This document shows, piece after piece, positions 46,603 to 53,071 of a stretch of 64,000 nt of DNA. The position numbers were made by a program, and so were the translations under genes. The stretch spans positions 1 through 64,000 of the forward strand of contig JANXXI010000184.1 of NCBI GenBank assembly GCA_025350695.1, read 5' to 3'. Every line of letters begins with the position of its first letter. The first letter of the stretch is position 1. This stretch comes from Acidobacteriota bacterium. Its GTDB lineage: Bacteria; Acidobacteriota; Terriglobia; Bryobacterales; Bryobacteraceae. The notes beneath the pieces were generated by a model. The model worked only from the letters and a program-made list of their open reading frames with translations. It did not search any database and was not told where the DNA came from.

Positions 46603-47558
46603 GCAAATACAAACAGCAGCCGATTGACTTCGCCGGTCTGAAGACGATTTCCGTATTTTCACGAGGCGGCAAAGTTCGCGTGGAAGATTTTGCCCGCACT
46701 TATGAAAAGGGCGGCGGCCTGAAATCGCTCGTTGATTCGATGCCTGCAATCCTTGCAGGTGATTCCTTTCGCGCCGTGGTGGATCGCATTCTGGAAGCCA
46801 AGGCCAAGGGTAAACCCGTGCTGTGGGGATATGGCGGCCACGTCATCAAGTGTGGGATGGCTCCCATTCTGCTGGATCTGGCGCGTCGCGGATTGGGCCA
46901 CGGGTTTTCCACCAACGGTTCGGGTTCGATTCACGATTTCGAGATTGGCATAGCCGGTTGGACCAGCGAAGACGTCGAGGCGGTGTTGCCCGATGGAACA
47001 TTTGGGTCGGCCGAAGAGACAGGGCGCTGGATGAACGAGGCAATTAGCGAAGGGTCGGCCGGTGGGTTGGGTATGGGAGAGGCCTTGGGCCATAAGCTGG
47101 AAAGCTGCGGCAAGCCGGAATTCGCGTCGAAGTGTATCCTGCTTAGCGCTTACCGTTCGAGCATTCCGGTGACAGTGCATGTGGCAGTTGGCACCGACAC
47201 CCCGCACACGCACCCGGCAGCGGTTGGCGCGGCGATTGGCGCGTCAACATACCAGGATTTTCGCTTATTCTGCTCCATGGTGAAGGAGCTGAACGGCGGC
47301 GGCGCCTACATCAATTTAGGTTCGGCGGTGGTGATGCCCGAGGTGTTTTTGAAAGCTGTCTCCTCTGTTCGCAACCTTGGTCACGAGCTGAAAAACTTCA
47401 CGACGGTTAACCTTGACTTCATCCAACATTACCGGCCGAAGGTGAATGTAGTTGACCGTCCCCACGCTGGCAGCGGGGGCAAAGGATATTCCTTGACGGG
47501 GCATCATGAGATCATGATTCCTTTATTGGCGGCTGCGCTGATTGAACAATGCGACTGA
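46599..47558 (+). CDS. Conserved hypothetical protein, deoxyhypusine-synthase-like family
   Basis: [54 protein letters not shown]; 4-nt overlap with uvrA. Confidence 0.55.
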
Positions 47559-48235
47559 GCGAACCATTTTGGAATTATTGGGATCTGCTGATAGGCATTG
47601 GGCTGATCGCGCCAGCCTATGCCGCGAGCGCCTTGGTCATGGTGATGGGGACCGCGCCGAAAATCGTCAAAGCGAATTTGGGAACGCTGGTGTTTTATTT
47701 GGTTTTGTTCAGCGCGATGTACTTCGTTCTTAGCGGGAAGTATTCCAAGTCAGTCAAGGACGGATTGGCTTGGGTACCGGGCGCCGTCGCCAGTTGGAAA
47801 GCTGCGCTGGCGGGTGTTGTGCTGGCCTTTGCAGTTTCGATGCTGGGGGCATTGCTGCCTAGCGCCGACCCGGTAACGCCTGTGTCCGGATACTTAGAAT
47901 CTAAGTTGGGATTGTGGCTTATTTTAATTGCTTCGACAACCATCATGCCCGTTTGTGAGGAAATAACTTTTCGCGGGTTTGTCCTTCCTTTGTTAGCCGA
48001 TACCCTTGGAGTCTGGCCCGCCGTTGGCGTCACTGCCATCCCGTTTGCGCTGCTTCATGGGCAGCAATATTCGTGGGCTTGGCAGTCAATTCTTGTTTTG
48101 CTGCTTACTGGGATCGCTTTCGGTTGGATGCGGGTTGCCAGCCGATCAACGATTTCCGCAAGCGTCATGCATGCCAGCTATAATTTGATTCCGTCACTCT
48201 TTTCGATTGCGGATCATCCCGAACTATCGAGATAA
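47549..48235 (+). CDS. CPBP family intramembrane metalloprotease
   Basis: MPVCEEITFRGFVLPLLADTLG...ALLHGQQYSW...SRSTISASVMHASYN. Confidence 0.88.
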   Translation: MRLSEPFWNYWDLLIGIGLIAPAYAASALVMVMGTAPKIVKANLGTLVFYLVLFSAMYFVLSGKYSKSVKDGLAWVPGAVASWKAALAGVVLAFAVSMLGALLPSADPVTPVSGYLESKLGLWLILIASTTIMPVCEEITFRGFVLPLLADTLGVWPAVGVTAIPFALLHGQQYSWAWQSILVLLLTGIAFGWMRVASRSTISASVMHASYNLIPSLFSIADHPELSR

Positions 48236-48236
48236 C

Positions 48237-48932
48237 ATGAGGATCAAAGAACCGTTCTGGAATTATTCGGACCTTGCCATCTTTCTTGGCCTTGTTCTTC
48301 CATCGCTGTTGGTTACGGGCCTGATAATGGCATTACTCCGCGGAGCGCCGAAAGCGGTTGCTCTGATCATCGGGCAATCGGGGCTGTACGTGACGCTTTT
48401 CGTTGGACTCTATCTGGTGCTGAAGAATAGATACAACGAGCCGGTGTGGGAGGGTCTCGGTATGGTCGGGTCTCAAGTCGCCCAATGGAAAGCAGCGGTG
48501 TTCGGTATCGCGCTGGCCTTTGCTCTTTCCGGTTTTGGACTCCTACTCCGCACGCCCCAAATGACCGATCCGATGAAGGAATTGTTGGACGGGGATCTAG
48601 CCGTCATAGTGGTCGGCATCGCCGCCACAACGGTCATGCCGGTGTGCGAGGAGCTAGCTTTCCGCGGCTTCCTCTTTCCGCTGTTTGCCCGCACTTTCGG
48701 CACGGCATTGGGCATTCTCTTCACAGCGTTGCCATTTGCGCTGATGCACGGTCCGCAGTATGAATGGCACTGGCAACACATGCTGCTGCTGACCATGGCC
48801 GGCTGCGCCTTTGGCTGGATGCGAGCTTGGACAGGCTCCACCATATCAGCCAGTTTAATGCATGCCGCCTACAACATGACGTTCATGTTGGGATATATCG
48901 CCAATCAAAAGGAACTTTCCGGAACATGGTAG
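48237..48932 (+). CDS. CPBP family intramembrane metalloprotease
   Basis: [22 protein letters not shown]...[10 protein letters not shown]...[14 protein letters not shown]; tandem paralogue of the upstream gene; start refined to 48237. Confidence 0.88.
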
Positions 48933-49954: not shown

Positions 49955-49980
49955 TCGTCCTATAATTGAATGGAGGCAAG

Positions 49981-50292
49981 ATGACTGCAACTCTTACTAC
50001 TCAAATCGAGATCGACAGCGGAGGCGTCGCGTGGCTTGCCGGTACACAGGTAAAGGTTGTGGAGATCGTTCTGGACAAACGGGCCCATGGTTGGAGCCCG
50101 GAAGAGATCCATTTTCAACACCCGCATCTTTCCATGGCTCAAATTCATGTAGCCTTGACGTATTACTACGAAAATCAGGTGTTGCTCGATGGGCAAATCG
50201 ATCAACGAATTACGGCTGCACGTTCACTGGCGCGCAAGTCCTCGGATCCTGTCTTTCGCAATAAACTCGTCGCGTTTAAATCATCAGTTTGA
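49981..50292 (+). CDS. DUF433 domain-containing protein (putative antitoxin)
   Basis: AWLAGTQVKVVEIVLDKRAHGWSPEEIHFQHPHLSMAQIHVALTYYYEN. Confidence 0.8.
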   Translation: MTATLTTQIEIDSGGVAWLAGTQVKVVEIVLDKRAHGWSPEEIHFQHPHLSMAQIHVALTYYYENQVLLDGQIDQRITAARSLARKSSDPVFRNKLVAFKSSV

Positions 50293-50636
50293 AACCGTCG
50301 TTCCTTATGGACGTTCACGTCCCATTTGCAGTCACCGTCGCGCTCAAGCTGCGTGGAATTGAAGTTTTAACCGCCCAGCAAGACGGCTGCTCGGAGTTTG
50401 ATGATGTGGCGCTGCTGATTCGCGCTGCAGAACTAGTGCGCATTCTCGTCACTCAAGATGATGACCTGCTGCAGATTGGGGCTTCGTGGCAGGCTGAAGG
50501 CCGCAGGTTCGCTGGGATAATTTACTCACACCAACTTCAGATCACGATTGGCCAATTGGTTAAGGATATCGAGCTGATAGCTACCTTGACTACAACTGAC
50601 GAGTGGATGGGTCGCATCGAATACCTGCCCTTTTGA
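50289..50636 (+). CDS. DUF5615 PIN-like protein (putative toxin)
   Basis: FLMDVHVPFAVTVALKLRGIEVLTAQQDGCSEFDD...ILVTQDDDLL; overlaps the DUF433 stop. Confidence 0.8.
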   Translation: MKPSFLMDVHVPFAVTVALKLRGIEVLTAQQDGCSEFDDVALLIRAAELVRILVTQDDDLLQIGASWQAEGRRFAGIIYSHQLQITIGQLVKDIELIATLTTTDEWMGRIEYLPF

Positions 50637-50647
50637 ATTTTTCTGAC

Positions 50648-50959
50648 TTACGGGGCCGTTGGGCAATAATCGCTCTGCTCCGCTAAAGCTTCCATACTGG
50701 CGCGAGCGATAAATCCGGACCTTGTCTCTCCATGCTTCCTTGCTGAATCATCAATAGCCGTTAGCAGCTTCTTGGGCAGCCTTGAATAGCAAAGCCATCT
50801 TCAATTAGCAATTCCAGGTGCCCTTTATTGCTTCCGAGGCTTTGGTTACGTTACCGCTTCGTCTAAGCTATCCCCCGCGGAAAAGCATCCCTTCAGATCG
50901 GGAATAGTGACTCCGTGACAGGAATTCTTTTCTTTGTGAATGGCCAACGGGAAAAGCAT
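50648..50959 (-). pseudogene. hicB: hicB-type antitoxin pseudogene
   Basis: MLFPLAIHKEKNSCHGVTIPDLKGCFSAGDSLDEAVT / VTKASEAIKG / HLELLIEDGFAI / LPKKLLTAIDDSARKHGETRSGFIARASMEALAEQ in different frames. Confidence 0.85.
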
Positions 50960-50960
50960 T

Positions 50961-51146
50961 TTAGTTTTGTAGACCTGCCTGTTTGAAGATGCCGCGAACC
51001 GTACTCAATGGTAAATCCTTTTTCGGATGAGGGACAGTGACCAGTCCCTTCTGTTCGGAATGGCGAAAGTGGTGGTGGCTGCCCGTAATGCGAACCAATT
51101 TCCATCCTGTCTTGTTCGGCTTTCGGATTACTGAACCGCTGTCCAT
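50961..51146 (-). CDS. hicA: HicA-type mRNA interferase toxin, apparently intact
   Basis: GWKLVRITGSHHHFRHSEQKGLVTVPHPKKDLPLSTVRGIFKQAGL. Confidence 0.85.
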   Translation of the reverse strand: MDSGSVIRKPNKTGWKLVRITGSHHHFRHSEQKGLVTVPHPKKDLPLSTVRGIFKQAGLQN

Positions 51147-51169
51147 CTATGTGTCGTACGCAGACCCCT

Positions 51170-53071
51170 CTAAGCAGGGTCCACGCGAACCACCGCATAC
51201 GGTAACAGCGTGATCTCCAAATCCTCACCCATCTCCACCAAACGGCCCGGCCTCGCCCGCCACTCCTTAGGCTTCCCTGTCGCATCGGCGTAGCTGTGCT
51301 CATCGAGCGATTTCACTCGAACCCTGCCGCTCATGCCCGCCTTGCTCCATCGGACGACTTGCAACTCAGCACTGAAGTTCGCGGCGATGCAGCAGCGCTT
51401 GGCGCCCTTACTCAGCGCCAGACCCGCCGCCTTAAACTTGTCGCCTGATGCAACTTCGGTCACCTCGCCGCCGGAAAACTCCGCCACATCGGCTAACACA
51501 TGATAGATGGGAAATACGGCATCGACCGAAGTCATCACGCCAGCACTACCAGACGCTTCGTAGTAAGTTACTGATGCTGCGGAAGCTTCGCTCAGGTACT
51601 TGATGCTCCCTAGTGTCCACGCGGCGCCGAATAGGCTGTTCATTCTTGGGTCAGGCACGGTTGGTTGTTTCGATACTTGGTTAAATCGCGGCCGCAGTGT
51701 CACGGGTGAAATTGCAATTGGCTTCGTTCCCAAAAAGTGCCTGGCCGACCGAACAGTGTCGCCCTGCGACGACAAATTCTCCACCAGACTTAAGTTATCG
51801 AAGGAATGGACTTGAGGGTTGACGGAATAGGCCGCCAAGTCAATCGTCTCTAGAACGGGCCTTCCTCGGTTCAGCTCGGCAAAATATTGATTCGTGCCTC
51901 CGCCAATCGGCGCGCCCTTCAAATGCCGCCGAGCCAGACGCAACCACTTCTCGCTGGTCGCCGGCTCATCGTTGTGGAAGACCAGGTAACGAGCCACACG
52001 CAGGCCCGCAGCCGATTTGGTGAAAGTCTTCAACTCAGCGTCAGCATCATTGGAAACAAAAAGAGCCAATTCCAAACCCGCCCGATTCGCGAGTGCACTA
52101 GCAGCCGCGCGCTTCAGTAACTCCGGATACGCTGGGTCGTTCAACTTCAAATCCACACGAAGATGCGCGGCGTTCAATGCTCCTAATAATGGCATCGATG
52201 GCGAATAACCCGACCCGATCATCGGTAGCTTAGTTTTCGCATTGCCGGTCGTGAAAAAAATCTCTTTGCTTTCACTGCTCACTACCGGCTGGGTAGATTC
52301 CGCAACGATCTTCACCGTCACCGTCTGCTCAATCGCGTCCCCTTGCCGCACTTGCACAGGGAAGGGAAGCGCCAAGGGCGTGCAATAGGTTTTGAAATTC
52401 CCGTCCGTCCAATTGCGATGATCCTCAGTCTCGAACGTATCGCCCTCAAAACGGACTTCTGCCTGAACCCCTGGCCTCACAGTATGGGTGATCGCCCGCA
52501 AGCCAATGAACGGCTGATTGGGTGAAACGGAACTTGGGAATGTGCCGGTTTCAACCAGTCCACCCTCTTTTTCCAGCACAGCCTTCTGACCCACGCACCC
52601 TTCCAGTGGATGCAGCACGGCAAAGCCGATCCGATTTTTCATGAAGGCCGTGCGCGCCTTGCCGGCGAACTCAAATCGAAGAACGCCGGTGGCCTCCCCC
52701 GTAATCCGGCCCTTCCATCTAAAATCAATATCGCCTTCGGCGCACTGAACGTCGAAGTTGACCAGGAAGTGCTCCGCACTTTTTTCAATAACAAGGTTTG
52801 AAACCTTTGGCGTCACCGTTCCCCAGGATTTATCGCGTACAGCAGCATAGATTCCACGCAGCACTTCGGAACCGTTGAATCTAATGAACCGCAAGAAACC
52901 CAGGTCAGGCTCAAAGAGGGCGCTCCAGGGGCCCGCGGTCAGTTCGATCGGCGCCCTCGGGGCCCCAGCCACGCCATAAAGGATTTCGTTACGGCCAGCG
53001 GCCCGGCCCGTAGCCGACCCCAAAAGGGCCAGCGCTCCACCCAGCAATTGACGGCGATTCAATGGTGTCAT
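51170..53071 (-). CDS. Tat-exported hypothetical protein, possibly D-apionate-lactonase-like
   Basis: NRRQLLGGALALLG Tat-like N-terminus; FLRFIRFNGSEVLRGIYAAVRDKSWGTVTPK...ITGEATGVLRFEFAGKARTAFMKNRIGFAVLHPLEGC...RNWTDGNFKTYCTPLALPFPV. Confidence 0.5.
   Translation of the reverse strand: MTPLNRRQLLGGALALLGSATGRAAGRNEILYGVAGAPRAPIELTAGPWSALFEPDLGFLRFIRFNGSEVLRGIYAAVRDKSWGTVTPKVSNLVIEKSAEHFLVNFDVQCAEGDIDFRWKGRITGEATGVLRFEFAGKARTAFMKNRIGFAVLHPLEGCVGQKAVLEKEGGLVETGTFPSSVSPNQPFIGLRAITHTVRPGVQAEVRFEGDTFETEDHRNWTDGNFKTYCTPLALPFPVQVRQGDAIEQTVTVKIVAESTQPVVSSESKEIFFTTGNAKTKLPMIGSGYSPSMPLLGALNAAHLRVDLKLNDPAYPELLKRAAASALANRAGLELALFVSNDADAELKTFTKSAAGLRVARYLVFHNDEPATSEKWLRLARRHLKGAPIGGGTNQYFAELNRGRPVLETIDLAAYSVNPQVHSFDNLSLVENLSSQGDTVRSARHFLGTKPIAISPVTLRPRFNQVSKQPTVPDPRMNSLFGAAWTLGSIKYLSEASAASVTYYEASGSAGVMTSVDAVFPIYHVLADVAEFSGGEVTEVASGDKFKAAGLALSKGAKRCCIAANFSAELQVVRWSKAGMSGRVRVKSLDEHSYADATGKPKEWRARPGRLVEMGEDLEITLLPYAVVRVDPA

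Follow-up and report, generated by a model that had tools for sequence, protein, structure and literature searches.

We asked how a toxin gene could remain open next to an antitoxin gene that is visibly broken. The two genes lie on the minus strand of the window (the whole stretch of 64,000 nucleotides that was analysed, from an acidobacterium of the family Bryobacteraceae). The toxin gene, hicA (51146-50961, stop included), is an open frame of 61 codons for a dsRBD-like toxin of the HicA family. Pfam HicA_toxin (PF07927) matched it over profile positions 4-58 of 58 (66.7 bits, E=2e-18), with the full-domain score above the curated cut-off of 27; hicA had no match in NCBIfam or PADLOC. A sequence-only reading of this DNA had described a complete 61-aa HicA with the motifs GSHHHFRH and VPHPKKDLP, and both motifs are indeed there. 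The closest solved HicA, that of B. pseudomallei (PDB 4c26), was matched by phmmer over its full length (76 bits, 59 residues). The canonical gene order is kept as well: the ATG of hicB (50959) follows 1 nt past the hicA stop, and in relatives the spacing between the two genes is mostly -4 to +79 nt.

The antitoxin gene is a relic (50648..50959, minus strand) that consists of a HicB-like N-domain, a broken middle and a ribbon-helix-helix-like C-terminal piece. To read it, we built an HMM from the intact HicB neighbours of HicA relatives and used it with three-frame translations. The N-terminal piece covers HMM positions 2-39 (49 bits). A 5-bp tandem duplication, GTAACGTAAC (50854-50845, minus strand), stands at the first frame change and also makes the stop that ends the residual ORF of 37 codons (50846..50959, minus strand). 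The second-frame stretch VTKASEAIKG comes next, then a second frame change, probably the loss of 1 nt in AATAAAGGGCAC (50829-50818, minus strand), and then the third-frame stretch KGHLELLIEDGFAI, a short middle piece that covers HMM positions 47-61. The C-terminal piece is in the first frame again (HMM positions 101-135, 33 bits), and positions 62-100 are missing. At the junction (50774..50796, minus strand), HLELLIEDGFAI and LPKKLL are nearly contiguous, while 36-42 residues (median 40) separate them in 53 intact relatives. An internal deletion of ~110-120 nt, which removed ~40 codons, therefore accounts for the third frame change. Read 5' to 3', hicB thus contains three frame changes, in agreement with the earlier statement that it is legible only with at least two frame switches; that description understated the damage, as it missed the ~40-codon deletion. 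None of the pieces contains a nonsense codon in its original frame. The complete antitoxin that stands beside the toxin in a functional hicAB is absent here, given two small indels and the ~40 missing codons.

Is an open hicA frame next to such a relic surprising? With three lesions per ~411 nt of hicB, the probability that the 183 nt of hicA escape is 0.26 if the locus is neutral. Because this value is so high under neutrality, the open frame is no evidence that hicA has been retained, and purifying selection deduced from the open frame was dismissed for this reason. The view that a toxin without its antitoxin is unusual was overstated, as the chance of such an outcome under neutrality is ~26% and decayed hicAB loci are documented.

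We then asked whether the toxin protein is damaged, using an alignment of HicA with 111 homologues (59 once redundancy was removed at 80%). Codon 10 of hicA (51117..51119, minus strand) is CCG, which encodes proline. At this position the non-redundant homologues carry Leu (40), Ile (12), Val (5) or Ala (1), with one gap (58 sequences with a residue), and proline was found in 0 of the 111 homologues. In B. pseudomallei HicA, Leu10 heads the list of hydrophobic-core residues, the others being Trp15, Phe27, Val36, Val38, Ile53 and Ala57 (PMC3969222). Six of these seven core residues are kept in the window HicA, and the seventh has changed from Leu10 to Pro. An AlphaFold model (22 sequences) puts residue 10 within helix 3-12, and it is used here only to locate the residue, as models of this kind say nothing about what a point substitution does. 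In addition, codon 48 (51003..51005, minus strand) encodes Ser where 51 of the 59 homologues have Gly. On the evidence of the alignment, Pro10 is probably a disabling change in the protein core; the homology of the locus to the HicA family is not in doubt, and the loss of Leu10 would be a structural defect. Several points stand against an inactivated HicA. The catalytic residues Gly22, Ser23 and His24 (GSH) are kept, Gly22 and His24 having been shown to be necessary for toxicity in B. pseudomallei (PMC3969222), and with these two residues intact and a high profile score the loss of activity is probable at most. Moreover, Pro10 falls within the final turn of a short helix, a place that can sometimes accommodate proline.

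A leave-one-out comparison pointed in the same direction as Pro10 and Ser48. At six positions HicA has a residue that none of the homologues carries there, the highest count among the sequences whose nearest neighbour exceeds 60% identity; all sequences with more such odd residues are remote, with a nearest neighbour below 55% identity (67% for HicA). By the same measure the hicB pieces show no excess (rank 47 of 71), and hicB was therefore probably constrained until recently. This would fit an early release of the toxin from constraint, with the antitoxin constrained until recently; we infer this order, as no close relative of the locus was found from which a phylogeny could show it. There is partial support for the earlier proposal of very recent deletions, in that the hicB pieces have neither an odd-residue excess nor nonsense codons in their original frames.

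Where did the module come from? The best HicA relatives are found in Paraburkholderia (65% identity) and in viral contigs (63%), compared with 55% for the best HicA among 396 sampled genomes of the phylum and about 50% for the best within its own family. The G+C content of the locus is 49.5% versus 53.9% for the window (7th percentile). A search of 120 related genomes with the locus DNA, meant to find either the empty site or a copy that is intact, gave no match beyond the genome of the locus itself. The blocks uvrA-GSU2086-CAAX-mtnA and ABC-ABC-GldG, which flank the locus, are each conserved in the family and were joined in none of the regions fetched. Because the flanking blocks are unjoined in relatives, the toxin-antitoxin genes stand at a breakpoint and an empty site is not demonstrable. 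Judged by these comparisons, the locus would fit a horizontally gained hicAB module at this breakpoint.

The neighbourhood contains further genes of note. An intact-looking pair of DUF433 (PF04255) and DUF5615 (PF18480) genes (49966-50636, plus strand) adjoins the hicAB relic in convergent orientation and is possibly another toxin-antitoxin pair; it had no match in NCBIfam or PADLOC. On the other side lies a gene for a 633-aa protein (51170-53071, minus strand) that is without a Pfam match and resembles D-apionate lactonase (314 bits to NCBIfam NF049900, which falls short of the cut-off of 750); it is present in 2 of the 9 family members checked. Farther away, two CAAX-protease (Rce1-like) genes that adjoin and overlap slightly (47549-48932, plus strand) look tandem-duplicated, and the fetched relatives have a single such gene, located between mtnA and the GSU2086-like gene.

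The explanation that we favour, with a probability of about 0.8, is a canonical, horizontally acquired hicAB in decay, whose toxin was probably disarmed before or with the loss of the antitoxin. A canonical hicAB toxin-antitoxin module would have been gained horizontally, and HicA would have been weakened or inactivated by a point substitution, or scarcely expressed, at the latest when hicB was lost (we infer this step). A harmless toxin would have left hicB unprotected, which would have allowed the 5-bp duplication, the small indel and the ~40-codon deletion, and the hicA frame would be open since it has simply not been hit yet.

Could HicA instead be a still active RNA-targeting toxin that is silent because its own promoter, operator and ribosome-binding site are lost, with at most read-through from the upstream gene? 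The intact Gly22, Ser23 and His24 would agree with this, and so would the expression signals. The gap between the gene for the 633-aa protein and hicA is 23 nt (51147..51169, minus strand) and has no good Shine-Dalgarno sequence near the ATG; the Shine-Dalgarno energy of hicA is -2.7 kcal/mol versus a median of -7.85 kcal/mol in 74 relatives. A consensus promoter scan, which is a weak test, found none near the hicA start, the sole nearby minus-strand match being at the hicA end (50987-50958), and the TGTGTA...TACACA repeat that is present upstream of hicA in several relatives is unrecognisable at the window locus. However, weak Shine-Dalgarno sites also precede several other window genes, so that weak translation of hicA is soft, supporting evidence only; read-through from the co-directional upstream gene is possible, and Pro10 in the hydrophobic core together with Ser48 points to a damaged protein. 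A silent but active HicA therefore seems unlikely. Of the three options offered by the sequence-only reading, an inactive or silent HicA appears to be the best supported, by Pro10, Ser48 and the weak translation signals. That hicB is intact in the organism and was broken by sequencing or assembly error is hardly believable. The assembly is a draft of 391 contigs and the second hicB lesion sits in a short homopolymer stretch, but a 5-bp duplication is atypical of read errors and the long neighbouring genes (uvrA, the gene for the 633-aa protein and the ABC transporter) are open. A simple read error is inadequate for hicB because of the internal deletion of ~40 codons, which also rules out programmed frameshifting as the source of the frame changes, and corrected reads that restore an intact hicB, the outcome named earlier as a refutation, are very unlikely.

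We also considered that HicA is active and neutralised by a HicB from elsewhere. The genome (a draft of 7.19 Mb in 391 contigs) was surveyed by family searches and gave 18 HicA matches and 13 HicB_lk_antitox matches; a search with PF05534 added C16 only. Most of the other HicAs are remote and have a short HicB partner (about 70-75 aa), usually upstream, and the HicB matches are mostly such partners. The sole other HicB found that matches the whole profile is intact-looking and lies on contig C297 (1481-1840, ~131 codons). There, a tRNA-Glu gene is followed by a hicA that lacks its beginning and contains a frame change, and then by hicB (C297:1230-1840); this orphan antitoxin with a broken toxin is the mirror image of the window locus. 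The search for a second hicB thus yielded one domain-complete long HicB, which resembles the window pieces only moderately (14/29, 6/12 and 9/21 identical residues). As this identity is too low, cross-neutralisation is not expected and the C297 HicB would be an unlikely substitute antitoxin. Since HicA itself is also probably damaged, the earlier idea that another antitoxin neutralises it is poorly supported and we consider it very improbable. Two further HicA matches (C134:3040-3210 and C259:49143-49310) contain in-frame stop codons, and the survey suggests that decayed hicA copies are common in this genome. Finally, hicA may have been retained on its own because its product, at reduced toxicity, took on another role. 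The open frame and the conserved RNA-binding/catalytic end of the protein speak for this, but an open frame is readily explained by chance (P about 0.26), HicA has an excess of odd residues and no ortholog was found at the locus in the 120 relatives, which leaves this explanation barely tenable. Little credence can likewise be given to a HicA that was detoxified by the core-helix proline and kept solo as its antitoxin decays, or to an unlinked pairing with the toxin-less C297 HicB.

How does the locus compare with known systems? The B. pseudomallei HicA-HicB system (PDB 4c26, 6g26; PMC3969222) has the same HicA numbering and also has the toxin gene first, whereas the window locus has Pro10 for the core Leu, Ser48 for Gly and a destroyed hicB. 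The canonical hicAB loci of Paraburkholderia and Halomonas resemble it in that hicB follows hicA at once, with HicA identity of up to 65%, and their HicB (~135 aa) has the same layout of a HicB-like N-domain and a C-terminal ribbon-helix-helix-like segment. In contrast to the window locus, these loci encode a complete HicB, a strong Shine-Dalgarno sequence precedes most of their hicA genes and several of them carry the TGTGTA...TACACA repeat upstream. In Stenotrophomonas maltophilia, hicAB is often a pseudogene and some cloned loci are non-toxic (PMC7650669); there a frameshift left the toxin non-functional, while in the window the frameshifts are in the antitoxin and the toxin has acquired substitutions. 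A 2024 HicA survey described solitary hicB and vapC genes and clustered toxin-antitoxin loci (PMC10865869). Decayed hicAB has thus already been reported, and the window locus is a further case, in which the antitoxin is the visibly broken partner.

The paradox of a lone surviving toxin is therefore mostly gone, and what is left is ordinary gene decay. Although neither point is new in principle, the locus illustrates how an 'orphan toxin' call based solely on an open reading frame can mislead, and it offers a concrete example, at the level of sequence, of how a host might survive the loss of an addiction module: in that case, the defect in the toxin core would have come first, and the decay of the antitoxin would have followed.
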